Positions 10,373 to 59,465 of a DNA stretch of 64,000 bases are shown in pieces. The translations under genes were made by a program, and so were the position numbers. The notes under the pieces were generated by a model. The model saw nothing but the letters and a program-made list of their open reading frames with translations, ran no database searches and was not told the origin of the DNA. How positions within the stretch are numbered: position 1 is the first letter of the stretch; each line of letters opens with the position of its first letter. Origin of the DNA: a virus. The stretch lies in the IMG/VR virus record IMGVR_UViG_3300028045_000013, positions 1 to 64,000 of that record. One strand, 5' to 3'.

Positions 10373-10984
10373 ATGAAAATAGTACCACATTATGATGTTC
10401 CTGTTCCTGCTAGTGCAAATGTAATACTAACTGTAGCAGAAGTAAAAGAATACTGTTATGCAGATGCGGTAGGGACTGAAGATGATAGTTTATTTGAATC
10501 TTTAGAACTAGGAGCACGAAATTTATGTGAGGAGTTTCTAGGAAGACCTTTACTAACCAGCACAGCAGTATTCTGGTATAACTATGCGAAAGTAGTAGAA
10601 CTAAACCAATGCAGTAAAAGAGTGTTAGAACTTCCATTAGGAAAGCTACAATCTATAGGAGCTATTAATACATATAAGATTGATACTACAGAAGTTGTAG
10701 TGGATACAGACAATTATGAAACGTCTGTTACATCTAATCAGTTTGCTTCTGTATACTTTTCAGAGGACATACTAGTTAACAACGATGATCCAAGAGTACT
10801 AGATACTATGAAGATCACAGTAACAGCAGGTTTTGGAGATACCACTACTTCTGTTCCTGATACTATAAAAATAGGTATGAAAGCTTTATGTGCTTATTGG
10901 TATGAATATAGAGAGAATCAAGAATCTATACCTTCTAATGTAAAAGCATTATGGTCCCCTTATGTAATAAAGAGGTTTAAGTAA
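10373..10984 (+). CDS. Head-tail connector (gp6-like adaptor)
   Basis: The protein has 203 residues. 'LTVAEVKEYCYAD' with 'DDSLFESLELGARNLCEEFLGRPL' is the helical core of the Phage_connect_1/gp6-like family, which forms the ring under the portal. The C-terminal 'IKIGMKALCAYWYEYRE' helix is also family-typical. The gene is somewhat longer than average because of a ~60-residue beta insertion. It overlaps the next gene by one base. Confidence 0.85.
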   Translation: MKIVPHYDVPVPASANVILTVAEVKEYCYADAVGTEDDSLFESLELGARNLCEEFLGRPLLTSTAVFWYNYAKVVELNQCSKRVLELPLGKLQSIGAINTYKIDTTEVVVDTDNYETSVTSNQFASVYFSEDILVNNDDPRVLDTMKITVTAGFGDTTTSVPDTIKIGMKALCAYWYEYRENQESIPSNVKALWSPYVIKRFK

Positions 10985-11388
10985 TGGCTACTCGTAGAAC
11001 AACTATAGGACAGATGAGGGATGTAGTTGAATTCTTAAGTAGAGACACAGCTATATCTGGTGATTATTCTGGAGAGGACACATATACTATAGAACTCTCC
11101 ACTAGAGGACGTGTCAGGAGTATGGAAGGAAGTCAGTCTAGGAATGGGATAGGGATGTATGATCTAGAAAGAACTAACACCCTTACTGTAAGAAGGAATA
11201 CTAGGACTGAAGCTATTGATACTGAAAATTTTGTAAGGTGGCAGGATAAGGTATATGCAATTAAGAATGCAGAACCTATAGGAGTTACGTCGGATGATCC
11301 TAAGAAAAGATTCTTAAGGATGGAACTTACATTCTATGTAGATAGTGTAACAACCACATTTCGTGATCCTAGTCCTGAAGCATCGTAA
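10984..11388 (+). CDS. Head-tail joining (head closure) protein
   Basis: The protein has 134 residues. 'GQMRDVVEFLSRD', 'RGRVRSMEGSQSRNGIGMYDLERTN' (family span) and 'RWQDKVYAIKNAEPI' match the Phage_H_T_join (SPP1 gp16/HK97 gp9-like) family, a beta-barrel that closes the connector after packaging. The gene order connector, closure, gp10-like, tail terminator is standard. Spacing to both neighbours is short or overlapping, indicating one operon. Confidence 0.85.
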   Translation: MATRRTTIGQMRDVVEFLSRDTAISGDYSGEDTYTIELSTRGRVRSMEGSQSRNGIGMYDLERTNTLTVRRNTRTEAIDTENFVRWQDKVYAIKNAEPIGVTSDDPKKRFLRMELTFYVDSVTTTFRDPSPEAS

Positions 11389-11397
11389 GGAGTAGGT

Positions 11398-11853
11398 ATG
11401 TTAACAGTCAATATATCATTAGATAAAAAACAAGTAGGACTTTTGACAAAACGCCTACATCTATTTCAAAGACGCTACATACCTAATATTATTAAGCAGA
11501 CAGGAAAGGATATAGAGAAAGGAGCCAAAAGATCTATAAGAACTGGGGGACGTTCCGGGATTCATTGGCATAACTTGCGTTATAGATCTTCTGGAGATGG
11601 GGAAGTTCCAAGATCACAATCAGGAGCATTAGCACGTTCTATAAAGTCTAGATTTACCAAAAGTAAAAAACATGGTATAAATATGACTGTAGGAACTCCA
11701 CTACCTTATGGAGAGTTTCTAGAGAAGGGAACTAAGGACAGAAGAGGGGGTAGAGGAAGGATAACACCTAGACCTTGGTTAAAACCACAACTAGATAAAC
11801 ACGTCCCTCTAATGGCTAAAAGAATAGAACAATCATTACGGGAGAATTTATAA
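11398..11853 (+). CDS. HK97 gp10-like tail/neck protein
   Basis: The protein has 151 residues. It has a basic N-terminal helix, 'KDIEKGAKRSIRTGGRSGIHW', 'GEVPRSQSGALARSI', 'GTPLPYGEFLEKGTKDRRGG' (consecutive parts of the family pattern) and a final 'PRPWLKPQLDKH'. This is the HK97-gp10_like family, found between head closure and tail terminator genes and thought to act at the head-tail junction. It overlaps the next start by one base (TAATG). Confidence 0.85.
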   Translation: MLTVNISLDKKQVGLLTKRLHLFQRRYIPNIIKQTGKDIEKGAKRSIRTGGRSGIHWHNLRYRSSGDGEVPRSQSGALARSIKSRFTKSKKHGINMTVGTPLPYGEFLEKGTKDRRGGRGRITPRPWLKPQLDKHVPLMAKRIEQSLRENL

Positions 11854-12545
11854 TGGTTAGATTCACGAAGCCCAGTGATGTTATAGAACGCTTAAGGACA
11901 ACAATAGCATTAGTGGAAGCAGCAGTTGGAATTCCTCCTGAAGGCAGTTTCCAAACAAGAGTATTAGGAACAGGAAGAATAGAAGAAATAACAGAGTCTG
12001 AATTACAGAGACTTCCAAGACCATGTTTACTAGTTAGTTTAATGGATACGTCTACAGAAACAACTAATACCTATCCTGTACATCAACATATTTTACATGG
12101 ATTTGATATAGGACTTGTATTAGACACTAAGGATGCTAGACAACAGTATGCAGAAGAGAAGGTTCCTTATTTTAAGGAGATGCTAGTATATGCTTTAAAT
12201 GGGTGGCTTCCTAGAGATTACCAAACTGATACAGGATTATCCCCTTTTAGATTTCTAGGAGATATAGGGTTATTTTCTGACAAGTCCAGTTATGTACGTT
12301 TATTCTCTTTTGTACAGGATGCTCAATTCTCAGCATTACAGGATGGATTAGGAAGTACAGAAACAGAATTGAATCTAGCAAACTTTGAATCTTTCTATGC
12401 AGATATGATTTATACTACATCTCAAACAGTCCCTAGTGTATGGGATGATACAGAAGTTTGGGATGATGCTGATGACTGGGAAGATGAAGTTACTAGTGAA
12501 GTAGAACAGACAGTACAAATGCAAGCATTAGATTTACACGATTAA
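11853..12545 (+). CDS. Probable tail terminator (gp37-like) with WDD-rich tail
   Basis: The protein has 230 residues. Position after the gp10-like gene and before the sheath, and the pattern 'LPRPCLLVSLMDTS...HGFDIGLVLDT', suggest the gp37-like/tail-completion family that caps the tail tube. The last ~35 residues carry a repeated 'VWDD/VWDDADDWED' acidic-aromatic motif. A similar 'IWDDNFIWDDRLIW' run opens the gp48-like protein at 21611. The family call is from context and partial pattern, so moderate. Confidence 0.65.
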   Translation: MVRFTKPSDVIERLRTTIALVEAAVGIPPEGSFQTRVLGTGRIEEITESELQRLPRPCLLVSLMDTSTETTNTYPVHQHILHGFDIGLVLDTKDARQQYAEEKVPYFKEMLVYALNGWLPRDYQTDTGLSPFRFLGDIGLFSDKSSYVRLFSFVQDAQFSALQDGLGSTETELNLANFESFYADMIYTTSQTVPSVWDDTEVWDDADDWEDEVTSEVEQTVQMQALDLHD

Positions 12546-12565
12546 AACACACAAGGAGAACGCAA

Positions 12566-14149
12566 ATGAGTGATATAGGAATTGGATCAGGAGTACTCAC
12601 GCCGGGATCTTACTTTGAGATTGATAAGTCTAGAGCAACAGACCCTTTTGCTGTAGATACTTTTAAGGTATGTATACTAGGGGAACATCAAACAGGAGCT
12701 GGCGGAACTACTCCTGAAACAGATATCCTTTTTCAAAGAGTAGCCTCTGTAGATGACGCTTTTCTAAAGTATGGCAATTCTCCTTCGTTTGAAATGTGCC
12801 GTTCTTTCTTTAGGAATTATAAAGTAGGAGTAAATGCAGAACTTTACTGTATCTCTAAACCTACAGATGTATCAGGCGGAGTAATTAAAGGAATCTCTCC
12901 CAAACTACAACTTACTATTCCTAGTGACATGGTAGCTGGTACATTGAATGTAATCTCCAATGGAGAGGCTTACACAGTTTCTGTAGGAGCTAATGATCTT
13001 AATGATGATATTATTAATAGGATTGTTAGTGCAGTTAATGTACAGAGTTCGCTAGAACCTACAGCTTCAGGTTCAGCACTAAGTCTAGTAGTAAACTGGA
13101 GTACTATAGAGAATGTATCAGAGGATCTAGCTTCAGAGCTTGATGCTGATAACCAACAGGTAATGGTAGTAGTAGAAAGTTATGACAAAGGACCATTGAT
13201 TGCAGCGGAAACAGCTGTAGGTGGTGGTTCTTATGGAACAGCTGCAAAACGCCAGCAAATCTACCTAGAAGCTCCAGATTCTTCTACACCTACTGCAATT
13301 GACCTTGCAGACCATATCGCTGTTATTCCAGATGAAGTAATTAGTATTTTTATTAATCCTTATGCTTCTACAGGAGACCTAACAAATTACAACCTTCTTA
13401 AAACAGAACTAGAAACTAGGTTTACTGCTACTGAACAACTAGAAGGAGTTCAGTTTGTTTCTGAGGATGGAACTACAGCTAATATCGACACTGCCCTTGA
13501 TGGTTTCAATGAATTCCAAACGGTGATGTTAGATGCAGGTTATAATAGAGCTACACCACGTTACTTGCAGATTGCAGCATTAGCAGGAGTAGTAGCTAGT
13601 ACTGTTTATGCAGATCCTGTTATTCCTATGATGAATAAAACACTTAAGAGTGTCATTGCGGAACCAGAACAATATAAACGTAAACAATTCCCTGATAGAA
13701 ATGATATCCTAAAAGCAGGTGGAGCAGCAACGAAAGTTAACCGTAATACTGGTACTGTACAAACAGAAAGTATAGTGACTACATATACTACAAATTCACA
13801 AGGATTACCAGATCAGAGTTATAGGTATTTGAATACTGTTTTGACAGCGTCTTATTTACGACAATCCGCCCTACGTTTCATTAGAGTTAATTATGATAAC
13901 TACAAACTAGGAGATGATCCTTATGAAGGTAAGGAAGGACAGAGAATTGTAACGCCATTGATAATGAGGGCTTCTTTGCTAGCATGGTACAAAGAGTTAC
14001 AGGATCTAGCCATTGTAGAGAATTATGCTGAGTTTGAAACTTCTCTTGTAGTAGTACGTAACGGACAAGAACGTTTAGATGCAATAATTAATCCTGATCT
14101 AGTGAATCAGTTCCGTCTATTAGGTGGACGTATCTCGTTCCTACTTTAA
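12566..14149 (+). CDS. Contractile tail sheath protein (Mu gpL-like)
   Basis: The protein has 527 residues. The N-terminus ('GSGVLTPGSYFEIDKSRA', 'FKVCILGEHQTGAG', 'RVASVDDAFLKYGNSPSF') has the layout of Mu gpL/FluMu sheath proteins. The C-terminal half contains the conserved domain that wraps the tube. It shows that the tail is contractile (myovirus morphology). The tube gene follows directly, as in Mu. The leader AAGGAGAACGCAA is strong, as expected for a high-copy structural protein. Confidence 0.9.
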   Translation: MSDIGIGSGVLTPGSYFEIDKSRATDPFAVDTFKVCILGEHQTGAGGTTPETDILFQRVASVDDAFLKYGNSPSFEMCRSFFRNYKVGVNAELYCISKPTDVSGGVIKGISPKLQLTIPSDMVAGTLNVISNGEAYTVSVGANDLNDDIINRIVSAVNVQSSLEPTASGSALSLVVNWSTIENVSEDLASELDADNQQVMVVVESYDKGPLIAAETAVGGGSYGTAAKRQQIYLEAPDSSTPTAIDLADHIAVIPDEVISIFINPYASTGDLTNYNLLKTELETRFTATEQLEGVQFVSEDGTTANIDTALDGFNEFQTVMLDAGYNRATPRYLQIAALAGVVASTVYADPVIPMMNKTLKSVIAEPEQYKRKQFPDRNDILKAGGAATKVNRNTGTVQTESIVTTYTTNSQGLPDQSYRYLNTVLTASYLRQSALRFIRVNYDNYKLGDDPYEGKEGQRIVTPLIMRASLLAWYKELQDLAIVENYAEFETSLVVVRNGQERLDAIINPDLVNQFRLLGGRISFLL

Positions 14150-36400: not shown

Positions 36401-36517
36401 CTAGCCTAACCAGAGCCTGAACCCTACGAGGAACACGCCCCTCATGTTAATGTTAATCGATAGGTGTTTTTCTATTCCTTCTTTTACTACGTCTGCTAGT
36501 GTTAGTTCAGTACTCAT
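36401..36517 (-). pseudogene. Truncated third copy of the coiled-coil gene
   Basis: Bases 36459-36517 match 36161-36219 at 56 of 59 positions, covering the start codon and the first ~20 codons of the coiled-coil gene (MSTELTLADVVKEGIEKHLS). After that the similarity stops and the frame runs out after 18 unrelated residues. The start overlaps the thyX stop (TAATG). It is a recent partial duplication. Confidence 0.75.
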
Positions 36518-38304
36518 TACTGATCACTCCATATAAGATCGTTAGGTACATGTTCCTGCACTGCGAATCTAAGGGCTTTCCCTAGAGGTGTAAACTTCTC
36601 TCTTTTCCTACTTTTAGTACGTAGAGTAGTATCAGTTCCTATACCAGCAGCTACACAAGAAGATTTAGATGTAGGATGATATGCTGTTATTATAGAATTT
36701 CCATTACATATAGAAGGCTGCATACTCCAATCCTTAAATATATCTTCCGCTTCAAATTTAACTGAATCAAACAACGTAGGGCATTTCTTTACTAACTCCA
36801 TATATAGAGGCTGCATCACTTCTCTCATTTGTGGATGAGCTGTCTTGTCACATCGAAGCATAAACATATGTCTCCAGTCTCTCATGTTTGTAGTAATTAC
36901 AAGTTCAGTCTTTAGAGAATTAGGGAGTACAGATCTAGCTTCTTCAGGTTTCCACCCATCTTTTATTAAACTATCATAGTCTTCTTGAGCACCCAATATA
37001 GACCACATCCAGCGACTTTCTGTAGAAGGTTCAAGGACCGTACTGATTGATTCCACTTTCCAGTTTCCTAGAAACTTATCATCCATCCAACAAGGAAGTA
37101 TAAACTGCATTTCTTTTCCTTGATAATTAACATAGCGAGTTGATTCTTGGGAATTATGTACTACTAAACCATTCGCTACAAAGTTATGAGGCTCCTCTTC
37201 CATCTCTATATCAAATGTTCTGTTTTTACCACATGGTATAATAGATACTATCTCATCACTAAAAACAGAGAGTACACCACTCCCTACATGAAAAGCTTTA
37301 TGACAACTCCTACATAGGAATTTAATATTTTCCTTTTCATTATTAGTCGGGTCCTTATCCATATGGTGGCGTTCTAGATGCTCTTTAGAACCACAACCCC
37401 AACAAATATCAGGGGTATACATTTTATTAGCTCTTAAATATCCTGCCGAGCTGCCTATAGCATCTCCTTTCCATCTGGGGTTCTTTTCTCCCGTCATCCG
37501 TTTACTTATCTCATCACACTCTTTGTATGTTTTCTTTCTACCATAACCCCCCTTTCTATTTTTACGCATTGAAAGTGGTTTGTTAATATTATGTTTACGT
37601 AGAGTTCTTGTAACTATACTAACACAACATCCCATCAACACAGCCATTTCTTTTAAGGTGTTGTTTTCTTCTATATACTTCTTATATAACCATTCTTTAT
37701 TATCATATAAATCTAGACCATTAGCTGTTAATCTATCCCCTGCTTTTAGATTCCCTAGTTTCTGCCACCCTTCATCTGTTAGGAAACGATGTTGTGCTGT
37801 AGCTTTTATAGATCTGCCACTAACACATTTTACTTCTAGTAAATCCTTAACCCCAGAATCTATAATACTTTTAATTTTATTACGTACTAGAATCCCATCT
37901 TTATTTACACTTCTCAGTCTGATTAGTTTTAAACGACCTTTACGTTTAGGGTCATTTTGGTAATCCCAAAGTTGTTTCAGCGTCCATCTTTTTGAGGTCT
38001 TACTTTTTCCACCTTTAAAAGCTGTAACTACAGTATCTTCATCTAGGCAGAAACCACAATGTCTATGTCTTACAAACTCATGGCTAACACCACGATCTAT
38101 AACAAACCTTACAGTTATACTAGCATGTTCCAATGTACTTTCATGTCCATTTTCTATAATAGTACGTATAAGCTTATCTGCTGTTCCAGCGTTGATTTCC
38201 TTCTCTGACTTGTAGCAAGTCCTTATAGCCTTTTCTAAAGCTATAGTAACCTCATCCCAATCTGGTTCATTTACAATTTCATATGATGGTTTAATTAATT
38301 CCAT
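36517..38304 (-). CDS. thyX: ThyX thymidylate synthase interrupted by an HNH intein
   Basis: The frame has 595 codons. Host-protein parts 1-85 and 385-595 (296 residues) form a flavin-dependent thymidylate synthase, which makes dTMP from dUMP. Its RHRX7S signature is split: RHRHCGF (79-85) then SQESTRY (385-391). The intein is 299 residues, from Cys86 (CLDEDTVV) to HN at 383-384, with Ser385 as the next nucleophile. Block B is near 163-175 ('SIKATAQHRFL') and block F near 361-378. A helix-turn-helix-like segment (214-240) and an HNH endonuclease (C301, C304, H313-H314, C331, C334) lie inside. Confidence 0.93.
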   Translation of the reverse strand: MELIKPSYEIVNEPDWDEVTIALEKAIRTCYKSEKEINAGTADKLIRTIIENGHESTLEHASITVRFVIDRGVSHEFVRHRHCGFCLDEDTVVTAFKGGKSKTSKRWTLKQLWDYQNDPKRKGRLKLIRLRSVNKDGILVRNKIKSIIDSGVKDLLEVKCVSGRSIKATAQHRFLTDEGWQKLGNLKAGDRLTANGLDLYDNKEWLYKKYIEENNTLKEMAVLMGCCVSIVTRTLRKHNINKPLSMRKNRKGGYGRKKTYKECDEISKRMTGEKNPRWKGDAIGSSAGYLRANKMYTPDICWGCGSKEHLERHHMDKDPTNNEKENIKFLCRSCHKAFHVGSGVLSVFSDEIVSIIPCGKNRTFDIEMEEEPHNFVANGLVVHNSQESTRYVNYQGKEMQFILPCWMDDKFLGNWKVESISTVLEPSTESRWMWSILGAQEDYDSLIKDGWKPEEARSVLPNSLKTELVITTNMRDWRHMFMLRCDKTAHPQMREVMQPLYMELVKKCPTLFDSVKFEAEDIFKDWSMQPSICNGNSIITAYHPTSKSSCVAAGIGTDTTLRTKSRKREKFTPLGKALRFAVQEHVPNDLIWSDQ

Positions 38305-41993: not shown

Positions 41994-42929
41994 TTATTTC
42001 CTTTTTGTCATCTCCGCTTCATAGAAAGCTAAGGCCATACTATCTATCCCACAAGAGAAAGGTTCATCAAAACAAACCATTATCTTAGGGGCTTTAGATA
42101 CCATATAGTTTCCTTTTAATAAACAAGATCCAAAGTAGCGCATTACTGTTCTTCGTATAGACTCAGGCTCTTCTTTGCAAGCTCTTATTTTAGCAGCTAG
42201 AGTAGTCCAGTCTTGCTTCCCATTTGCTAGGTGTCTACACAAGTCTATTATCTCTGGATTCTCTATCATAGAATCTATACTTTGGATGTGCTTTAGGATC
42301 TCTTCTACTCCATCTGAAGTATCCAATCCTAGCACACTCTCAAGAATTGTCAATGCTTTTCTTGAAGATCCACCAGCCTTAGCTATGATGGCTTCTACAA
42401 CCTCTTCCTCTAACTCTTCCTCTTCCCCCTCAACAACTCTTTCAATTACAGCTGTCATAGATTCACTGTCTAGTAATTCACAGTTAAATACTACACACCT
42501 ATCTTTAATCCCTTTTCTTATGTTTTTAGGATCTGTAGTACATATAACCAAGAAGGTAGTATTGTACTCTTCTTCTAGGGGTTTTAGTAGTAAGTCCTGT
42601 GTAGGTTTAAGAAGTGCATGAAACTCATCCAAGACAACCATTTTATATTCATCCCCTAAAGGACGTACTCCTAAAGAATCTGCAATACCTCTGAAGGACT
42701 CCATTGATCTATCTTTTCCACAATTGATTTCAGTATAGCAATGTTTAATCTCTAGATACTCTCTTATGATTCTAGCGAATGTAGTCTTCCCTGTACCATA
42801 ATCTCCTGTGAACATAAAGACTCTAGGCATAGTATCTACATCTTCAAAGTATTTATCTAGCATAGTCTTAATGTGAGTGTTACCTTCTATATCTTCTAGT
42901 TCCCCCGGTCGATAATCATTGTATAGCAT
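41994..42929 (-). CDS. Clamp loader ATPase (RFC/gp44-like)
   Basis: The protein has 311 residues. AAA+ features: 'YNDYRPGELEDIEGN' N-terminal box, Walker A GDYGTGKT (42-49), Walker B 'MVVLDEFHAL' (Asp101-Glu102), sensor 1 'VICTTDPKNI', the 'KDRCVVF' SRC-like arginine finger segment and sensor 2 'GSSRKALTILE'. It loads the sliding clamp encoded at 46676-47407. Only one loader gene is visible, so it may act as a homomer or use a small subunit not recognised here. Confidence 0.92.
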   Translation of the reverse strand: MLYNDYRPGELEDIEGNTHIKTMLDKYFEDVDTMPRVFMFTGDYGTGKTTFARIIREYLEIKHCYTEINCGKDRSMESFRGIADSLGVRPLGDEYKMVVLDEFHALLKPTQDLLLKPLEEEYNTTFLVICTTDPKNIRKGIKDRCVVFNCELLDSESMTAVIERVVEGEEEELEEEVVEAIIAKAGGSSRKALTILESVLGLDTSDGVEEILKHIQSIDSMIENPEIIDLCRHLANGKQDWTTLAAKIRACKEEPESIRRTVMRYFGSCLLKGNYMVSKAPKIMVCFDEPFSCGIDSMALAFYEAEMTKRK

Positions 42930-43737: not shown

Positions 43738-45081
43738 CTATTGTTTATCATACCAACTACCATCTATAGGGCTTTGTTCTATATCTACTTCTAAAGGAAC
43801 AATAATCCAAGGAAACCTTTTCCTAATATCTACAGACATTACTTGTTTCATTTTCTCTATTATATAATCTTTCTCTGGAGGGTATATATCCCATAGAATA
43901 CTATCATGTACCTGTACTATAGGATATGATTTAAGTCTATGTCTTTTCCTCCATGCATTAAGTTCTACAAGACACCACAATAACCAATGATATGCAGATC
44001 CTTGTATAGGATAATTAGACACCTGTTTCTTATCTAGTAATCCTTGAACAGTAAATCCAGTAAGTGTATGTAGATATCCTTTCTTTAGGTACTCAGCCCA
44101 CAAGTCATCTCTCCATTGATTATACACATAGAACCTTTCAGTCCAGAAGTCATATTCCACTCCTTCCATATGTTTTATAAACTGTTCTAATGAGTCTATC
44201 CCTTTCCTTCTAAGGTGCCTTTTCAACTTAACCCCAGAACTAGTTTTTAAAGACATAGTATCTATAGCTTCCCACATGTTAGTAGCACAAGGCTGATACC
44301 AGTCTCCATAGAACTGAGGGAATACAAACATATTCTTACCACAGTATCTAGTATTTTTAGAAACTTCATCTGGTGGAAGTAGATAACATTCAGAAGCCAT
44401 GTCCCTATGCATGTCTGTAGTAGGATCAGTGATGTATTTAATCATCATAGGATCTTTATGATAACAAGCGCCGCACTTTACTTCATTACCTGAAAAGTCA
44501 ACCTCTAATAGGAGGTTCCCTTTTCTGGCTTTAAACCCTTTACGGACTATGGCTTTAACCTCTTCATTTCGAACAGGGATGTTCTGCAAGTTAGGACCTT
44601 GCGAAGAGGATCTATAAGAAGATACTAGGAGATTACTAAAGGATGGGTGTAATACATATTCCCCATCTCTATGAACTACTTGCCTTAATATACCTATTAT
44701 GTATGTTGATAATGTTTTCTCTAACTTCCTGATATGTAGTAACTGTTCTGGAAACTCTCCTTTAAAAGAGGCTAGTACTTTTTCATCTACACTCCTTCCT
44801 TTTACTTGTGTATAGTTTAAATCATCGAATAATGCCTTCCCTAGTTTCTTAGAGGAAGTAAATCCATCCTGTCCATATTTCTTATGAATGAACTTCCCTT
44901 CATCTGTTTTCAGGATCTTAGCATATAGAAGTTTAAGAGTCATAGAAAGTTCATCTGCTTTAAACTTGAAATGTTTGACATCTATTCTAATACCGTTCAT
45001 TTCCATATCTGAAAAAGCAAGTCCCCCAGAAGCCATTAAATCATAACCCTCTTTACTATTTGGATTATACTTAATATTCAT
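43738..45081 (-). CDS. DNA polymerase, family A, polymerase domain protein
   Basis: The protein has 447 residues, so only the polymerase part of a PolA enzyme. 'SSSQGPNLQNIP' (158-169), motif A 'LLEVDFSGNEVK' (Asp195), motif B 'RYCGKNMFVFPQFYG' (246-259) and motif C 'VQVHDSILWD' are present. The usual motif A DYSQIE is DFSGNE. The proofreading domain is encoded by the upstream gene. It has its own AAGGAG site, so it is translated separately rather than by frameshift. Confidence 0.93.
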   Translation of the reverse strand: MNIKYNPNSKEGYDLMASGGLAFSDMEMNGIRIDVKHFKFKADELSMTLKLLYAKILKTDEGKFIHKKYGQDGFTSSKKLGKALFDDLNYTQVKGRSVDEKVLASFKGEFPEQLLHIRKLEKTLSTYIIGILRQVVHRDGEYVLHPSFSNLLVSSYRSSSQGPNLQNIPVRNEEVKAIVRKGFKARKGNLLLEVDFSGNEVKCGACYHKDPMMIKYITDPTTDMHRDMASECYLLPPDEVSKNTRYCGKNMFVFPQFYGDWYQPCATNMWEAIDTMSLKTSSGVKLKRHLRRKGIDSLEQFIKHMEGVEYDFWTERFYVYNQWRDDLWAEYLKKGYLHTLTGFTVQGLLDKKQVSNYPIQGSAYHWLLWCLVELNAWRKRHRLKSYPIVQVHDSILWDIYPPEKDYIIEKMKQVMSVDIRKRFPWIIVPLEVDIEQSPIDGSWYDKQ

Positions 45082-46291
45082 AATGTAGCTCCTTCATCAT
45101 ATCTCTTCCTAACCTATAGGTGATTAAAGAATCCATAGCCCCATAGAATAACAGAGAACCTCTAGGAGCATTGTGTATATTGTTAATAGCATTATCTCCA
45201 TAGTTCTCTGTTTCCACATCTTCAGGGACTAGATACTTAGACATGTGTTTATCATATTCAAATATACCATACCTTCTAAAAGCTTGGAATTTAATAGAAC
45301 ATATTGCTTTCCTATTATCTAATAGATGTTGAGCTAGCACCACATCAAATACAAGACCATTTACATTTACTCCTAGATCCTGTTTAGCCCATTTATATTC
45401 AAAGCCATTATTAGCTGCTATCTTCGGAATGTTTCTATTTGTTAAGAATCTCCTTATAAGTGGTTTTAAGCTATCATACATCAGAAACGAATACGAACAC
45501 GTATCAGAAGGTGCAATGCTCAGAGAGACAATCCTATGACCTTCTGCATATGGTTTCAAACCTGTTGTTTCAAAGTCAAAGGCTACATAGTCTGTAAACT
45601 CTCTATCTTCAACTATTTTAGCTAGTATCTTCAAAGCTCCTAGTTCATCTACTACAATGCAGTAATCCCTTATATGATTTGTCCAGTCTGGTAATGGTAA
45701 ATCTGTATACTTCATACAGGCTGTCATATCTTTTCTAAGTAATACTAACTCTAACTTCTCTACATCCTTATAGGTATTACCATTACCTGTGATCGAATCT
45801 TTGGTAGGTTTTGTTACTACAGATACCCATACATTATTCTGCTTATCTGGAAAGGTATAACCTCTCACTCTTTCATAGCAGTACTTCTTCTCATACCTTT
45901 CTGCCATATACATTCTATAGGACGTTAAGCCTAATGCAATGACTTGTGTGAATTCACCATCATCTAATAGTTTCTTCATTACAGAATGACAATGCATTAC
46001 TCTAGTGTTATAATCCTTCTCATTTTCTATAGCACCTTTACACATGACATCATGCATAATATAGTAATTATCAATACTGTGTTTCTTAAACCAACTGGAA
46101 ACCCATTGTTTATATATCTTAGAACGTGGACAGATGACTAATATCCTAGCATCTTTAGGAGCAGGAGGAAGCTTAAGGAAATTCTTCTTCTTTTTCCTAC
46201 CTACAGGACAATTAAAACAATCTGTCTTACCCTTCTTTTTCTTCGGGGATACTGCCATCGGATTCTTCTTCTCGAATAGAGGATGTTTCAT
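45071..46291 (-). CDS. 3'-5' exonuclease partner of the polymerase, with a UDG-like N-terminus
   Basis: The protein has 406 residues from ATG 46291 (GGAG about 10 bases upstream). Exo motifs: 'VAFDFETTGL' (Asp239, Glu241), 'AANNGFEYKW' (293-301) with 'FDVVLAQHLL', and 'YGAMDSLITYRL' (Tyr383, Asp387). Residues 20-200 resemble a degenerate uracil-DNA glycosylase-like fold ('TDCFNCPVG', 'ILVICPRSK', 'VIALGLTSYRMY'), but catalytic residues are not clear. It overlaps the polymerase gene by 11 bases and would supply its proofreading in trans. Confidence 0.85.
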   Translation of the reverse strand: MKHPLFEKKNPMAVSPKKKKGKTDCFNCPVGRKKKKNFLKLPPAPKDARILVICPRSKIYKQWVSSWFKKHSIDNYYIMHDVMCKGAIENEKDYNTRVMHCHSVMKKLLDDGEFTQVIALGLTSYRMYMAERYEKKYCYERVRGYTFPDKQNNVWVSVVTKPTKDSITGNGNTYKDVEKLELVLLRKDMTACMKYTDLPLPDWTNHIRDYCIVVDELGALKILAKIVEDREFTDYVAFDFETTGLKPYAEGHRIVSLSIAPSDTCSYSFLMYDSLKPLIRRFLTNRNIPKIAANNGFEYKWAKQDLGVNVNGLVFDVVLAQHLLDNRKAICSIKFQAFRRYGIFEYDKHMSKYLVPEDVETENYGDNAINNIHNAPRGSLLFYGAMDSLITYRLGRDMMKELHYEY

Positions 46292-46673
46292 TATACCATT
46301 CTCCAAAATGTTGCAACTTGTCACGTAATACTGATTTAGAAATAGGAACAAAGTATTGCGCTCCAGCTTTCCCTTCTGTTTTTATAAGATCCTTTTTCTT
46401 CAGTGTTCTAATAAGGTAATTTACAGAAGTAAAAGGGATTCCCATTAACCTTTCAAAATCTCTCTTATTGAACTTCTCAGGTCGATTTTTCATTATGTAC
46501 CTAAGATATGTTTCTACATTAGCTTTTAAAGCGTGTTCTCTTTTAGGTTTCCTTCTCAGTTTTGCAGCTGCTTCTATTTCTTTACGTTCTATATCATGAC
46601 ACTTGGAGCATAGTTTATCTTCTAGTAAAGCCCACTTATATTTTAAACACCTTCTACATTGAAATTTTTTCAC
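46227..46673 (-). CDS. Zinc-finger winged-helix protein
   Basis: The protein has 148 residues from GTG 46673, chosen because AGGAG lies 7 bases upstream and directly follows the clamp stop; a TTG further up has no site. Cys pairs in 'FQCRRC' and 'KLCSKCHD' make a zinc knuckle. Residues 60-120 form a winged helix ('FERLMGIPFTSVNYLIRTLK', 'KKDLIKTEGKAGAQYFV'). It is likely DNA binding. It overlaps the exonuclease gene. Confidence 0.7.
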   Translation of the reverse strand: MKKFQCRRCLKYKWALLEDKLCSKCHDIERKEIEAAAKLRRKPKREHALKANVETYLRYIMKNRPEKFNKRDFERLMGIPFTSVNYLIRTLKKKDLIKTEGKAGAQYFVPISKSVLRDKLQHFGEWYNETSSIREEESDGSIPEEKEG

Positions 46674-53816: not shown

Positions 53817-53844
53817 ATTATAGCAGTTTTTCACATAATGTCAA
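53817..53844 (-). promoter_or_regulatory. Near-consensus sigma70 promoter
   Basis: On the minus strand TTGACA (53844-53839) and TATAAT (53822-53817) are perfect consensus boxes separated by 16 bases. The start would be near 53810, 25 bases before the next gene. It is the best promoter in the window and lies between the primase gene and the 189-residue gene, so it probably drives the helicase segment. Confidence 0.85.
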
Positions 53845-53856
53845 ATAAATTCAAAA

Positions 53857-54756
53857 TCAACCTTTCAATTCATGCATTAATGCACGTGCATAGGCTTTTG
53901 GTAAATCCGCCGGATCACACTTTGCATATTTCCCGGTCAGCCTCACATATTCTGTAGTTCCTTTATAACATGACAACTCTTCTGCTAACTGTTTACCTTT
54001 TCTAACTGCTTGTTTATCAGGAGTATCGAACAGAATGATTCTATTCTCATATGTAGAAAGTAGACGTACTTGACTTTGTGTATAGTCTATACCAAAAGTT
54101 CCTACAGCTCCATATCCTAACCTCCACACATCTGGTAAACCTTCTACTACTACAACTGTATCTGTATTAGTATAGTCAGCTCCATATAGTAAGTGTTGAT
54201 GTTGGATTACTTCATCTGCTTGTGGGCAGGCTTTATATCTTAATTCCTTTCTACCAGAAACATCCCTTGTTTGAAAAGATACTAATTGGTTATTAAAATT
54301 AATAGGAGCTACAATCCTATGCTGATACATTCCTGCTGCATAATGACCAGAAACCAAACCCCATAAAGTAACTAACTCAGAAGGGTTAAATCTCCTACCT
54401 CTAAGGTATCTTCTAGCTTCTTTAGATAGTGCTGTGTGGAAAGGAAGCTTAAGGGTTAAAGCTTGTTGTTTATACTTTTCCTTAACATCATCCTTTGGTT
54501 TACTAGAATCTATCTTTTTAGTATAGGTTTGTGTTATCTTCGCATCACCTATAATATGTAGTAGGACATCATAAGTAGAATGCCAACCACATCTCCAGCA
54601 GTTATAGTACTTACTGTTTATATGCCACCCTAGATGATACCCATGTGTACCTGTACAGAACATACATTCTGTCTGAAGCCATCCTCTTCTAGAATGTTTA
54701 TGAGAATCAGGTGCTGTAGATACTCCATAGGTTCTGTACAGATCTTCCATATTCAT
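53857..54756 (-). CDS. DNA primase (zinc ribbon and TOPRIM)
   Basis: The protein has 299 residues. A zinc ribbon near the N-terminus (Cys31, Cys34, Cys53, Cys56 in 'CMFCTG' and 'NCWRCGWH') recognises template. The TOPRIM core has 'TVVVVEGLPDVWRLG' (Glu205) and 'NRIILFDTPDKQA' (Asp244). Short for a DnaG, resembling compact phage primases. It would lay primers for the helicase-polymerase machinery. Confidence 0.88.
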   Translation of the reverse strand: MNMEDLYRTYGVSTAPDSHKHSRRGWLQTECMFCTGTHGYHLGWHINSKYYNCWRCGWHSTYDVLLHIIGDAKITQTYTKKIDSSKPKDDVKEKYKQQALTLKLPFHTALSKEARRYLRGRRFNPSELVTLWGLVSGHYAAGMYQHRIVAPINFNNQLVSFQTRDVSGRKELRYKACPQADEVIQHQHLLYGADYTNTDTVVVVEGLPDVWRLGYGAVGTFGIDYTQSQVRLLSTYENRIILFDTPDKQAVRKGKQLAEELSCYKGTTEYVRLTGKYAKCDPADLPKAYARALMHELKG

Positions 54757-55121
54757 TGTTTATTTATTTTTCCTATAGAAGCATTATATAGTCGTATTCT
54801 AGTTTTCATAACACTTATGTCATGGTGCATAGATAATAGTATATGGAGTATATTGGTCTCATCATCTGTTAAAGGGGCTGCATAGTCCTCATGGTATTGT
54901 AGAATAATTCTTCCTAGTTCTTGCACTTTCTTTGATTTTACTATTCTACATCGATTCATTCCTGTTGGTATAGTAGCTACAGGTATTAGCACCTGTATTT
55001 GTGTAGGTTCAAATGTAATACTATCTATTTCAAACTCCAACTCTATATTATACTTCTTTTCTATGAACTCTTTGATTTTAATTTCTATTTGACCTTCTAC
55101 TAGATTAAGTGCTTCAAACAT
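54753..55121 (-). CDS. Hypothetical protein
   Basis: The protein has 122 residues. The N-terminal half has an amphipathic helix and beta strands ('VEGQIEIKIKEFIEKKYNIE', 'IQVLIPVATIPTG'). No family is recognised. It overlaps the primase start by 4 bases (ATGA) and follows the 24-residue membrane peptide by 2 bases. Confidence 0.65.
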   Translation of the reverse strand: MFEALNLVEGQIEIKIKEFIEKKYNIELEFEIDSITFEPTQIQVLIPVATIPTGMNRCRIVKSKKVQELGRIILQYHEDYAAPLTDDETNILHILLSMHHDISVMKTRIRLYNASIGKINKQ

Positions 55122-55122
55122 A

Positions 55123-55197
55123 TTATTCTCCTATTTCCATAAGTAATAAAACTATAACTCCTACAACACATATAAACATGATAACTGTTATTATCAT
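55123..55197 (-). CDS. 24-residue membrane peptide
   Basis: The frame starts at ATG 55197 in an ATGA overlap with the upstream stop, preceded by AAAGGAGTT, and ends at TAA 55123, two bases before the next start. Product MIITVIMFICVVGVIVLLLM then EIGE: a single membrane span with an acidic tail. The tight fit between coding frames on both sides argues that it is translated. Confidence 0.5.
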   Translation of the reverse strand: MIITVIMFICVVGVIVLLLMEIGE

Positions 55198-55535
55198 AAC
55201 TCCTTTTGTGTAGAGTGACTTAAACCATCTAACTGTAATATAAAACCCTTTATATTGTTTACATTTGTCAAAACACCATTGAGTTTATGTAATGCTCCTA
55301 TATCTGTTTGAGCTTCTTCTATTGTAGTTATAACTACTCCAACCTCTTCCTTTAGTGCTATCACTACCTCCTGTAACGTTTGACTTTTATCTGCTGCTGA
55401 TGCTTGTTCTTCATTTACTATATTAGTATACTCTATAGAATCCATTATAGTTTTGTGTTGATCCTGTACTGTAGTTTCTAGATCTAATACCTTTTCAATT
55501 AGTAGATCTATTATTACTTCATCTCTAGTTCTCAT
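55194..55535 (-). CDS. Hypothetical coiled-coil protein
   Basis: The protein has 113 residues from ATG 55535 (MRTRDEVIIDLLIEKVLD), with GAGG at 9 bases. The frame is open to 55565, but that ATG lies at the start of the transcript predicted from the promoter at 55569-55596. Helical with heptads ('LQEVVIALKEEVGVVITTIE'). The function is unknown. Confidence 0.65.
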   Translation of the reverse strand: MRTRDEVIIDLLIEKVLDLETTVQDQHKTIMDSIEYTNIVNEEQASAADKSQTLQEVVIALKEEVGVVITTIEEAQTDIGALHKLNGVLTNVNNIKGFILQLDGLSHSTQKEL

Positions 55536-55568
55536 GTTTATAGATTCCTCTTCTACACTTCTCATTCA

Positions 55569-55596
55569 TATATACTCTATAGCGGTTTAATGTCTA
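55569..55596 (-). promoter_or_regulatory. Putative sigma70 promoter
   Basis: On the minus strand TAGACA (55596-55591) and TATATA (55574-55569) with a 16-base spacer. It would serve the coiled-coil gene, the small peptide, the 122-residue gene and the primase. Confidence 0.5.
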
Positions 55597-55619
55597 GTTT
55601 CTAGAATGGTACTTTTCCT

Positions 55620-55841
55620 TTACTTATTATTCTTACTCTTCCATATAGATACTAAACATGATATAAAGAAAGGAAACCAAAGAAAGGTTACTAGAACAAT
55701 AAGGAATGAGTCTATAACATCTATGCCTTTAGGTTCTTCCAGTTCCAGCTGCTCTTTATATAATTGACAAGCTGATATGACTCCTACTACTAGTCCTACA
55801 GTTATATAAAATGTTAATACATTTATAAATACTATATTCAT
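55620..55841 (-). CDS. Small two-TM membrane protein
   Basis: The protein has 73 residues. Two hydrophobic segments, about residues 3-24 ('VFINVLTFYITVGLVVGVIS') and 46-67 ('FLIVLVTFLWFPFFISCLVS'), join through an acidic loop. GAGGAGTTTGAA precedes the start. The family is unknown; it is one of several small membrane proteins in this region. Confidence 0.65.
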   Translation of the reverse strand: MNIVFINVLTFYITVGLVVGVISACQLYKEQLELEEPKGIDVIDSFLIVLVTFLWFPFFISCLVSIWKSKNNK

Positions 55842-56125
55842 TTCAAACTCCTCTTATTCTTCTTTCCACATACAGGGCAGTATTTAACAGCTATAACACT
55901 ATCTAAATGCACAATCTCTAAATTATCCTTCTGTTCTATCTTGTCTAAATACTCATGTGCTCTCTGTAATACTTCGGGGCTGCTATTATCCCTTAGTGCA
56001 TTGTTTAAGACACTTGAAGCCCTCATCCTTAATATTCTAGCTTGTTGTGCTATTTCTGTCTTAAATACAGGCTGCCCTCTATTCTCTTTAGAAAAACCTA
56101 CTACATGGTTACATGGTTTCTTCAT
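55838..56125 (-). CDS. Small zinc-binding protein
   Basis: The protein has 95 residues. 'KPCNHVVGFSKENRG' at the start and 'KYCPVCGKKNKRS' at the end would bring Cys/His ligands together around a helical middle ('RILRMRASSVLNNALRDNSS'). The layout is common in phage proteins of unknown role. It overlaps the two-TM gene by 4 bases. Confidence 0.65.
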   Translation of the reverse strand: MKKPCNHVVGFSKENRGQPVFKTEIAQQARILRMRASSVLNNALRDNSSPEVLQRAHEYLDKIEQKDNLEIVHLDSVIAVKYCPVCGKKNKRSLK

Positions 56126-56157
56126 TGTATTAGTTCCTTTTAATTCTATACTTCTAG

Positions 56158-56406
56158 TTAATATCCACGTTTCTTTTTTCTACTCTGTTTTCTCTTCTTT
56201 ACTTCTTTGTGATGTTGTACTACATCTGGTCTTCTAGAATTTGGTTCTCCTTCTGTATCAAATAAGCCTTCTCCTTTTATAGGTTTCATGGACATGCTAC
56301 ATTTCCTACGTCTGGGTTTATGTATTTCATAGTTTTCAGGAAGCGTTGTGTTCTGCTTACTATAAGCTGCTCCTATAAGTATAGCTTCTTTTATAGTTCC
56401 ATTCAT
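56158..56406 (-). CDS. Hypothetical basic protein
   Basis: The protein has 82 residues and is strongly basic at the C-terminus (KKRKQSRKKKRGY), otherwise polar. It starts in an ATGA overlap with the upstream acidic gene. Nucleic-acid binding is possible from charge only. No family is recognised. Confidence 0.6.
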   Translation of the reverse strand: MNGTIKEAILIGAAYSKQNTTLPENYEIHKPRRRKCSMSMKPIKGEGLFDTEGEPNSRRPDVVQHHKEVKKRKQSRKKKRGY

Positions 56407-56765
56407 AAATCAAAGTCTCCACTCTCTACTTTCCCTTCTATTTCCATGACCTTCTTGGCATATTTCTCTAATGTTTTTTTATAGTCTATATAATTCTCAT
56501 CATCATCATCTGAGTCAGTTTCTATGAATTCTATACATTCACTATTTACACATTCGTGTATATGATCTTCAAAAGCTTCTCTTAAAGCCTCTTCTTTAGT
56601 TTGAGGGAATGTTTCTTTTAGGTTTTCTAGTAGACCTACCATTTCATTTTTAAAGACTACATTCTTGTGCCCTTTAGATAAAGATCTATTTATTCTATCA
56701 AGTAGGAACTCTATTTCATCTTTGGTACATTGTTTCTCTAGTGTTACTGTTCTTTTATTTTTCAT
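56403..56765 (-). CDS. Hypothetical protein, paralogue of the pentapeptide protein's C-terminal domain
   Basis: The protein has 120 residues from ATG 56765 (AGGAA at 7 bases). 'QCTKDEIEFLLDRI', 'LLENLKETFPQTKEEALREA' and an acidic stretch match in order 'TCTKKEIEYLLKQM', 'IEQLKCLKARFPDTKEDRLDKV' of the neighbouring pentapeptide-repeat protein. So the free domain and the fused domain are neighbours in one operon. The function is unknown. Confidence 0.7.
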   Translation of the reverse strand: MKNKRTVTLEKQCTKDEIEFLLDRINRSLSKGHKNVVFKNEMVGLLENLKETFPQTKEEALREAFEDHIHECVNSECIEFIETDSDDDDENYIDYKKTLEKYAKKVMEIEGKVESGDFDL

Positions 56766-57768
56766 TACTAAATTCCTTTTCAATTTGATTAACTGTCTTT
56801 ACATACTCTTCTAAAATTTCCTGATAGTCTTGTTTATCTGAATTATCCATAACCAGCTCTCCTTCAAATTCATCTTCAAGTACCTCCAAATGCTCTTTAA
56901 AAACTTTATCTAGTCTATCCTCTTTAGTATCAGGGAATCGAGCTTTAAGACACTTAAGTTGCTCTATCATACTTTCTACAAACCTAGCATTTGGGGAAGC
57001 TTTTTTATAGACCATCCCTTCCATTTGTTTTAGTAAATACTCTATTTCTTTTTTAGTGCATGTTCTTGAAAATCTTACTGTAGGTTCTTCTGTACTAGTG
57101 ACTGTACTCATAGCTTCTAAATCAGTTCCTCTTAAATTAGCTCCTTCTAAATTAGCATCTTTTAAATCAGTTCCTTCTAAATCAGTTCCTTCTAAATTAG
57201 CACCTCTTAAATAAGCACCTCTTAAATTAGCTCCTTCTAAATTAGCATCTTTTAAATCAGTTCCTTCTAAATCAGTTCCTTCTAAATTAGCACCTCTTAA
57301 ATAAGCACCTCTTAAATTAGCTCCTTTTAAATAAGCAAATGTTAAATTAGCATCTTCTAAATTAGTGCCTAGTAAATTAGCACCTCTTAAATAAGCACCT
57401 CTTAAATTAGCTCCTTTTAAATAAGCAAATGTTAAATTAGCTCCTTCTAAATTAGTATCTTCTAAATTAGTATCTTTTAAATTAGCACCTTTTAAATTAA
57501 CTCCTTTTAAATCAGCATTTTCTAAATTAGTGCCTAGTAGATTAGCATTTTCTAAATTAGCATCTTTTAATTTAGCATTTTCTAAATTAGCATCTTTTAA
57601 ATTAGCAAATGGTAAATTAGCACCTTCTAAATAAGCTCCTCTTAAATTAGCACCTCTTAAATAAGCAAATGGTAATTTAGATCCTTCTAAATTAGCATCT
57701 TTTAATTTAGCAACTATTACTTCATGTAGTAGCTTCCCTGACTTACTATATATTTTTACTGTTTTCAT
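56755..57768 (-). CDS. Pentapeptide-repeat protein fused to a helical domain
   Basis: The protein has 337 residues. Residues 20-220 are nearly perfect A(N/D)LxG-type pentapeptides (more than 35), expected to fold into a right-handed square beta-helix. Such folds can mimic DNA (as in Qnr/MfpA gyrase protection), but many have other roles. Residues 230-337 form a domain homologous to the next gene's product. The repeat DNA holds perfect 90-base tandem copies. The gene starts on the SNF2 stop (TAATG). Confidence 0.9.
   Translation of the reverse strand: MKTVKIYSKSGKLLHEVIVAKLKDANLEGSKLPFAYLRGANLRGAYLEGANLPFANLKDANLENAKLKDANLENANLLGTNLENADLKGVNLKGANLKDTNLEDTNLEGANLTFAYLKGANLRGAYLRGANLLGTNLEDANLTFAYLKGANLRGAYLRGANLEGTDLEGTDLKDANLEGANLRGAYLRGANLEGTDLEGTDLKDANLEGANLRGTDLEAMSTVTSTEEPTVRFSRTCTKKEIEYLLKQMEGMVYKKASPNARFVESMIEQLKCLKARFPDTKEDRLDKVFKEHLEVLEDEFEGELVMDNSDKQDYQEILEEYVKTVNQIEKEFSNEK
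57128..57307 (-). repeat. Perfect 90-bp tandem repeat in the pentapeptide gene
   Basis: Bases 57128-57217 and 57218-57307 are identical over 90 bases, encoding six pentapeptides each (30 residues). A third partial copy continues for about 19 bases. A second 90-base periodicity links 57289-57350 with 57379-57440. Perfect identity implies recent expansion by slippage or unequal exchange, without frameshift. Confidence 0.85.
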
Positions 57769-59465
57769 TATTTATATTTCCTTTCAGCTATCATCGTTTC
57801 TAATTTATATGTCAACTCTCTCTGAACAGAAGCTCCAGCATCTGCTACATCCATTCCATCTACTATCTGTGAAATCATAACTCTCTTCTCATTTAGAATC
57901 TCTAATAAACCTTCCTCATAAGTTCCTGTACATATTAGATTCCAGATAGTAACATGGTTGTTCTGTCCCTTCCTATGGGCTCTATCTTCTGCTTGTTCCA
58001 TTGTTTTAGGGTTGTAAAGCATTTCACACATACAAACATCATTAGCAGCTGTTAGCGTCAATCCTTCACTACATGCTGTTAAACTACCTATGAACACTCT
58101 AACACTATCATCATTCTGGAATCTATACTCAGCATCCCTTCTATCTTCTGTTTTTACAGAACCATCTATCTTAACAGCCTTCGCGCCATAATGACTCTCT
58201 AACATATTAATAAGGAACTTATGATGTGCAAATAGGATTAACTTTCTACCAGTATCTTCTAGGAACTTATCAGCCCATTCTAAAAGAGCAGGGATTTTAT
58301 CATGAGCTATGCATTCTCTAAGTTTGGCTCTATAGGACATAGCACTACTATTGAAGTCTTCCTCTTGTGCCCACTGTTCTAAAATAGCATCGTACCTAGT
58401 AGTGTCTATTTCCAACTCTACTTGGATCTGTCTTTTAGGAGGTAGATCTTTCATTACGTCAGATTTTAAACGTCTAAACATTACAGAATTATAGAGAATG
58501 TCATTAAGTTCATGAGGGTTGAAAGCGGTTCTACATTGCATTCCTTGCCCACCACAGTACTTATAATTATAGTGTGTATAATCCCACATCTTAGGACGTA
58601 TAAGATTACATATAGTAAATAACTCCATAGGACTATTCGCTGCTGGTGTTCCTGTCATACCTATAACAAACTTAGCTTTATATGCTACTGTCTTTACATG
58701 CTGAGTGCGTTGTGCCTCTTTATTCTTTATCTTATGGATCTCATCACAAATAACCATATCAGGATTCCATTTTAGAAATGGTTTTATCCACTTCCCAACC
58801 ATTGCATAATTTATAACTACTAATCTACAAGGTCCAAAACCATTAGATAGATCATACTCATCTGGCCTACCATCTATAATCAATCTTTTACTTTCTGGAA
58901 CAACACCCCACTTGGCACATTCTGCATCCCATACATGTTTAATTGTTTTAGGGGCTATAACTAGAATACGTTTTATAGAAGGATACATTTTAATGAATGT
59001 AAGTACTTCTATGGTTTTTCCTAAACCCATATCGTCTCCTACAATCACCCTTCCATTATGTTCTATTATCTTCTTTACACCTTCCTTCTGAAAATCCATT
59101 AACACCTTATCTAGATGCTTAGGAATAGGTTTAGGTTTTAGAGTCACTTCATATTTGGACTTCTCACCTATCCTGTTTTTACCTTCTTTGATTTTAGCTT
59201 GGAGTTTTTCTTTCTTCTTATCAAAGGAGTTTGTTATCTCTATTGTATAACCACTAAGTTTAGCTACTCCTGTAGTAGTTGTATGCAGTTTAATAGCATT
59301 TATAATAGAAGGAGTGATGTAGTAAATATCTCTATTTGGATTATAGTGGAATTGTGTAGGTCCCATGAATGTAATGTTCTTATGAATCATAGGAGAATGA
59401 GGAGAACAGCGAACCATAAATCTTTTTTCTTTTACACTATATCCTAGTTTAAATACCTTCTTCAT
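57768..59465 (-). CDS. SNF2-family helicase/translocase
   Basis: The protein has 565 residues. Motif I GDDMGLGKT (143-151), motif II DEIH (241-244), 'GMTGTPAANSPMELF' (motif III) and the second RecA domain with 'IGSLTACSEGLTLTAA' and 'QAEDRAHRKGQNNHVTIWN' (motifs V-VI) are clear. It is compact, like HARP/SMARCAL1-type or phage SNF2 proteins that remodel forks or displace proteins from DNA. An N-terminal ~110-residue part is phage-specific. Confidence 0.92.
   Translation of the reverse strand: MKKVFKLGYSVKEKRFMVRCSPHSPMIHKNITFMGPTQFHYNPNRDIYYITPSIINAIKLHTTTTGVAKLSGYTIEITNSFDKKKEKLQAKIKEGKNRIGEKSKYEVTLKPKPIPKHLDKVLMDFQKEGVKKIIEHNGRVIVGDDMGLGKTIEVLTFIKMYPSIKRILVIAPKTIKHVWDAECAKWGVVPESKRLIIDGRPDEYDLSNGFGPCRLVVINYAMVGKWIKPFLKWNPDMVICDEIHKIKNKEAQRTQHVKTVAYKAKFVIGMTGTPAANSPMELFTICNLIRPKMWDYTHYNYKYCGGQGMQCRTAFNPHELNDILYNSVMFRRLKSDVMKDLPPKRQIQVELEIDTTRYDAILEQWAQEEDFNSSAMSYRAKLRECIAHDKIPALLEWADKFLEDTGRKLILFAHHKFLINMLESHYGAKAVKIDGSVKTEDRRDAEYRFQNDDSVRVFIGSLTACSEGLTLTAANDVCMCEMLYNPKTMEQAEDRAHRKGQNNHVTIWNLICTGTYEEGLLEILNEKRVMISQIVDGMDVADAGASVQRELTYKLETMIAERKYK

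Follow-up and report, generated by a model that had tools for sequence, protein, structure and literature searches.

A pentapeptide-repeat gene in the early region of a phage genome encodes a 337-residue protein whose C-terminal domain is, judging by its sequence, a diverged paralogue of the product of the neighbouring small gene, with homology far beyond chance. Phage pentapeptide proteins with tails are already known, and what differs here is a tail with a free paralogue next door. Our tentative reading is that the pair is accessory and probably directed at the host, with a solenoid and a helical tail that would drive assembly and could associate with the free copy; we consider this plausible but somewhat short of an even chance.

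The window, that is, the whole stretch of DNA analysed, comprises 64,000 of the 65,262 bases of the source virus record, with a G+C content of 0.36 and no detected tRNA genes. The source virus is a myovirus, with the terminase, portal, HK97-type capsid, contractile sheath, tape measure and baseplate hub encoded on the plus strand of the window and the replication region on the minus strand. The closest terminase in the phage collection is only 39% identical to that of the window, so this lineage appears to be poorly sampled there. Scans of the window predicted 36 promoters versus 36.9 in shuffled sequences, and 6 terminators versus 3.1. A perfect 12/12 sigma-70 promoter-like site (TTGACA, 16 nt, TATAAT, with a preceding TG) lies at 53817–53844 on the minus strand, between the primase and the next early ORF. 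Several other minus-strand genes of the window deserve mention in their own right. A ThyX thymidylate synthase (36517–38304; TIGR02170, 112.7 bits) carries an intein that includes an HNH endonuclease, and both ends of the intein score above the cut-offs of the respective models (N-terminal TIGR01445, 28.7 versus 24.5 bits; C-terminal TIGR01443, 27.8 versus 15.6 bits). The 65-kb phage also has a clamp-loader-like gene at 41994–42929, encoding an AAA protein that matches DNA polymerase III delta' (PF13177, E = 4.8e-9), and the family A DNA polymerase at 43738–46351 is apparently split into an exonuclease ORF (45071–46351) and a polymerase ORF (43738–45081).

The pair, namely, the fused gene (56755–57768, minus strand) and the stand-alone gene (56403–56765, minus strand), is located between two conserved core genes, a primase (53857–54756, minus strand; phrog_47) at the downstream border and an SNF2-type helicase (57768–59465, minus strand) as the upstream neighbour outside the pair. 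The original prediction had correctly named the latter as an SNF2 protein (Pfam SNF2-rel_dom, E = 1.5e-31). The slot between the two core genes (54757–57767, minus strand) contains five small ORFs besides the pair. These genes are packed head to tail, with overlaps of 1 nt between the SNF2 gene and the fused gene, 11 nt between the fused gene and the free gene, and 4 nt between the free gene and the next ORF, which suggests a single transcript.

For comparison of the slot, one relative, G003 (contig IMGVR_UViG_3300037245_000716), was reached via terminase relatives. It was the only genome returned by a lineage-specific SNF2 pattern in IMG/VR, and a primase scan returned G003 along with L174, a more distant phage. 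Two family scans in IMG/VR contributed relatives from among the matches listed, G003 not being among the SNF2 matches listed, and the terminase relatives L006, L007 and L009 are fragments with no SNF2 match that carry no weight on the question of the slot. The terminase, SNF2 and primase of G003 are 67%, 56% and 48% identical to those of the window, and the core genes of the early region follow in the same order; in L174, SNF2 and primase are 32% and 35% identical. Between SNF2 and primase, G003 carries about 2.3 kb of ORFs, whereas the small ORFs of L174 occupy about 0.8 kb. The ORFs in the 3.0 kb of the window slot have no match at E<=1e-3 among all ORFs of these two genomes, and the repeat protein and the tail domain are absent from both of these relatives, the two that hold both SNF2 and primase. 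Given that G003 and L174 keep the SNF2–primase order with unrelated ORFs in between, the pair seems to be accessory cargo, and the slot of the myovirus replication operon that carries it seems to be variable, as judged from these two relatives only. The unrelated ORF following SNF2 in G003 also overlaps the SNF2 gene by 1 nt, so that tight packing appears to be general in these phages. Separately, L174 encodes a DnaB-like helicase ORF (10557–13340, 927 aa) that aligns with the helicase of the window in two separate segments and is also similar to the ThyX of the window, the one with the intein; this helicase probably holds an intein.

The fused gene starts with ATG and encodes a pentapeptide-repeat protein, scoring 298.7 bits against Pfam PF00805 (cut-off 20.2, E = 3.3e-91). 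An N-terminal cap (residues 1–20; 57709–57768, minus strand), modelled by AlphaFold2 with two strands (residues 2–7 and 13–19) at a pLDDT of 53–58, is followed by 40 uninterrupted pentapeptides (residues 21–220; 57109–57708, minus strand) that, from the register count, the tandem repeats and the model, would form 10 coils of a beta-solenoid. The register is unbroken, the central position is Leu in all 40 repeats, and the underlying tandem DNA repeats (57128–57712) have a 15-base unit and a 90-base higher-order period. The predicted model has a strand every five residues, with a mean pLDDT of 63–91 per ten-residue block across residues 21–210, and, together with matches to HetL and MfpA, indicates a square beta-solenoid. 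All matches in a fold search against the PDB fall on this solenoid, the best being HetL and designed solenoids. The first match in a viral fold search was A0A514AAT2 (356 residues), with 324 columns aligned at a TM of 0.30.

The C-terminal domain (residues 220–337, 118 residues; 56755–57111, minus strand), delimited by BLASTP against the free copy and by a low-confidence model, is acidic and has four predicted helices (239–253, 261–276, 282–300 and 312–334; pLDDT 27–72 per ten-residue block, from a two-sequence input). AlphaFold2 predicted four helices for the free protein alone as well, at a mean pLDDT of 47 and also from a two-sequence input; we treat the helical character of the tail as a lead only. 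Troponin C was considered as a relative of the tail and dropped because the PDB profile match (E = 0.058) falls on the acidic stretch.

For the stand-alone gene, we took the ATG as the start, yielding 120 aa, in preference to the upstream TTG at 56783 at which the mechanical ORF list begins, because AAGGAA stands upstream of the ATG. BLASTP aligned the fused tail with the stand-alone protein at 35% identity over 106 aa (E = 2e-13), and the local alignment score of 148 compares with a mean of 37 (sd 6.9, maximum 66) in 2000 shuffles, bearing out the homology that had been proposed for these two proteins. A search of the whole virus record with the tail found exactly two copies, the fused and the free one. 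The alignment begins at a methionine in both, and in the fusion this residue, M220, is encoded by an in-frame ATG and is also the last residue of repeat 40, which fits a repeat gene reading through into a duplicated small gene. We infer that the small gene was first duplicated in tandem and that the upstream repeat gene then lost its stop codon and ran into the first duplicate, the start codon of which would persist as M220. As a potential internal start, M220 has a 16S-tail pairing energy of -6.8, with 19 gene starts ranging from -1.3 to -10.9 and a stronger pairing at 4 of 56 other internal ATGs; the AGAGGA motif stands 15 nt upstream, at a spacing that is too long.

Searching the phage collection by tblastn with the full fused protein, we found matches in 453 of 50,697 records, and nearly all of the PHROG families matched here are of unknown function. 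The surroundings of such genes were surveyed in nine phages selected for spread rather than at random (KSAP7, Barba10S, CA1NRNZ, MaMV-DC, RapA, B025, Stickynote, Bruin and ST64T), covering a few kb around each gene and twelve annotated repeat proteins, with wrong-strand and short frames dropped by hand; Barba10S gp042, annotated through another Pfam model, was missed by the survey script. A non-repeat tail of at least 71 residues is present in nine of the twelve proteins (two of KSAP7, one of the two of CA1NRNZ, and those of Barba10S, RapA, B025, Stickynote, ST64T and Bruin, the last with a 139-residue tail that retains a few repeats), and the other three (one of CA1NRNZ and two of MaMV-DC) are tail-less. 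Like the fused protein of the window, ST64T orf-232, Barba10S gp044, RapA gp021, Listeria B025 gp51 and Silviavirus KSAP7 orf110 and orf113 combine an N-terminal solenoid with a C-terminal tail, here of 71–90 aa, but these tails are unrelated in sequence to the domain of the window (best BLASTP E = 0.39). A profile of seven such tails gave E = 550 against the fused protein and E = 260 against the free one, although it is a weak profile that misses 4 of its 7 own members when they are left out. Among themselves, the tails of ST64T, Barba10S and RapA are mutually homologous (E from 1e-8 to 2e-10), and those of KSAP7 orf110 and orf113 are homologous to each other (E = 2e-10), with a weaker link between orf110 and B025 (E = 1e-5). 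KSAP7 thus resembles the window in having two paralogous tails, but there both copies are fused, and no free tail copy was found beside the repeat genes in the surveyed stretches of the nine phages. As a side observation, the conserved tails fall into two groups that are shared among unrelated phages, one with members at 1821–2519 of L183, 1429–1986 of L176 and 1893–2726 of L179 (Salmonella, Rheinheimera and Caulobacter phages), and the other comprising orf110 and orf113 of L175 and 1953–2492 of L180 (Staphylococcus and Listeria phages); the five proteins of these groups that were scanned against Pfam had no match beyond the repeats.

Two annotations encountered among phage pentapeptide genes bear on a role in counter-defence, in which the solenoid would occupy a restriction complex or another DNA-sensing defence complex. 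The ST64T gene sits between ral, an antirestriction gene, and gene 17, and a Cutibacterium phage pentapeptide gene itself carries an anti-restriction annotation; the placement of the pair in an accessory slot also counts for this role. The ST64T neighbours point toward a host-directed role but prove nothing, and all that favours counter-defence is annotation and neighbourhood. Furthermore, McbG and QnrB, when tested in one study, did not block BREX (PMC7261183). We consider counter-defence an unlikely, if reasonable, specific function for the pair.

Relatives of the tail were also sought. In the phage collection, tblastn with the fused tail found no relative, and tblastn with the free copy gave only two matches at E = 9, both in records of one Pseudomonas phage. 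Pattern scans of IMG/VR yielded 0 of 6 and 0 of 4 confirmed matches with the single copies and 0 of 89 with the pair; a GTDB scan with the pair yielded 0 of 78, and a looser DNA pattern in GTDB returned 39 stretches, none of which passed the HMMER inclusion threshold (best E = 0.027). These collection scans depend on short conserved stretches and could miss distant relatives. A profile search of 24 of 80 terminase-related records detected no tail relative, an empty result that, coming with no positive control, carries no weight by itself. No relative was detected either when 13,259 frames of the fetched loci, with those of the window left out, were searched with hmmsearch (best E = 3.3). The PADLOC defence models gave no family for the fused or the free protein at E<=0.01, and no title listed in searches of the open-licence literature described a pentapeptide protein of a phage joined to a paralogue of the adjacent gene product. 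Three candidate families for the tail were rejected: MetOD1 (E = 0.0034) and DUF6034 (E = 0.0085) each matched one copy and scored under the Pfam cut-offs, and phrog_25536 (E = 0.003) also matched one copy only. On this evidence, the tail appears to be an orphan domain; the widespread occurrence in unrelated contexts that the original prediction had named as the outcome speaking against it was not observed when phages, IMG/VR and GTDB were searched.

The lack of conserved tail relatives in the profile searches of the 24 terminase-related records, the fetched loci and the GTDB stretches is what would be expected of a neutral or decaying fusion, in which chance joined the repeat gene to the duplicate, leaving a tail devoid of any separate function. 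The persistence of an internal ATG at the junction and repeats that look freely expanding are compatible with such an origin. However, both copies retain full-length open frames, and 38 columns of their alignment are identical, which suggests constraint on both, and we regard decay as rather improbable.

The fused protein can also be compared with characterized pentapeptide proteins. Qnr, MfpA and AlbG, which protect gyrase, likewise consist of a pentapeptide beta-solenoid of similar length and a C-terminal extension. Qnr solenoids are interrupted by loops, whereas the 40 repeats of the phage protein run unbroken, and the tails of Qnr, MfpA and AlbG are short dimer helices, in contrast to the 118-residue domain with a free paralogue seen here. 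Gyrase-binding pentapeptide proteins are typically dimers formed via C-terminal helices (PMC10886550). The very regular A(N/D)LXX solenoid is shared with HetL and Alr5209-type proteins. These are cyanobacterial cell proteins, and they have no tail like that of the phage fusion. Against the NCBIfam models, the fused protein passed the cut-off for Alr5209 (150.6 versus 125 bits) on its repeats alone and scored below the cut-off for HetL (149.8 versus 260 bits).

A DNA-mimicking modulator of topoisomerase, in which the solenoid would bind host gyrase in the manner of MfpA and Qnr and the tail would position or dimerise it, gains from the shared fold class, MfpA and QnrB1 being among the PDB matches at E<=0.001 and AlbG appearing as well. 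In a Listeria phage study, HHPred connected a pentapeptide protein from a phage with inhibitors of gyrase (PMC12282133). Counted from the sequence, the solenoid has 22 basic versus 29 acidic residues, a net charge of -7 in 200 aa, with -2, -2, +1 and -4 on its four faces. The charge is mild and mixed; the net value and that of face 4 would fit DNA mimicry, and the number of basic residues would speak against it. Moreover, HetL and designed solenoids rank first in the fold search, and the scores against the NCBIfam models for Qnr (70.8 versus a cut-off of 240 bits) and MfpA (77.1 versus 360 bits) are far below the thresholds, leaving gyrase modulation improbable. Weakest of all, and highly improbable, is the dedicated system including SNF2 that had been proposed, in which the free and fused copies would recruit the solenoid to the translocase: the immediate adjacency with a 1-nt overlap is its support, but G003 and L174 keep SNF2 and primase without the pair, and a pentapeptide-like ORF was found, with a crude pattern, near SNF2 at only 1 of 80 distant loci (L097) among the matches listed.

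We return to the pair as an accessory, probably host-directed solenoid with an assembly module. The solenoid would provide the binding surface, and the helical tail would replace the C-terminal helices by which known pentapeptide proteins dimerise, mediating self-association. The free copy may pair with the fused protein, joining or capping the assembly and thereby setting its size or the number of solenoids it contains. The assembly-module role is suggested by the predicted helicity of the tail at the position of the dimer helices and by the free paralogue encoded by an overlapping gene. In this respect, part of the original proposal of a targeting or oligomerising domain stands, since the solenoid is joined to a paralogue of the adjacent gene product, and this tail, which looks helical, could serve in this way; the part that involved an SNF2 system does not. 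The solenoid would most likely act on a host protein, which may be an enzyme that handles DNA or part of a defence system, instead of aiding the phage SNF2 protein. The host-directed role is suggested by the location of the gene in a replaceable accessory slot of the early operon, the host target being deduced solely from this accessory place and from the annotation around other phage pentapeptide genes. A more elaborate version, which we consider very doubtful, is an adjustable assembly, in which the solenoid with its helical pairing domain and the free partner, possibly with a third form initiated at M220, would regulate the number of solenoids that face a DNA enzyme or a defence complex of the host.

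The existence of the tail in both fused and free form offers a natural test of the tail as an assembly module. If the pair modulates neither gyrase nor a defence complex, it would be an orphan accessory gene; if it does, it would represent an adjustable inhibitor made by the phage.
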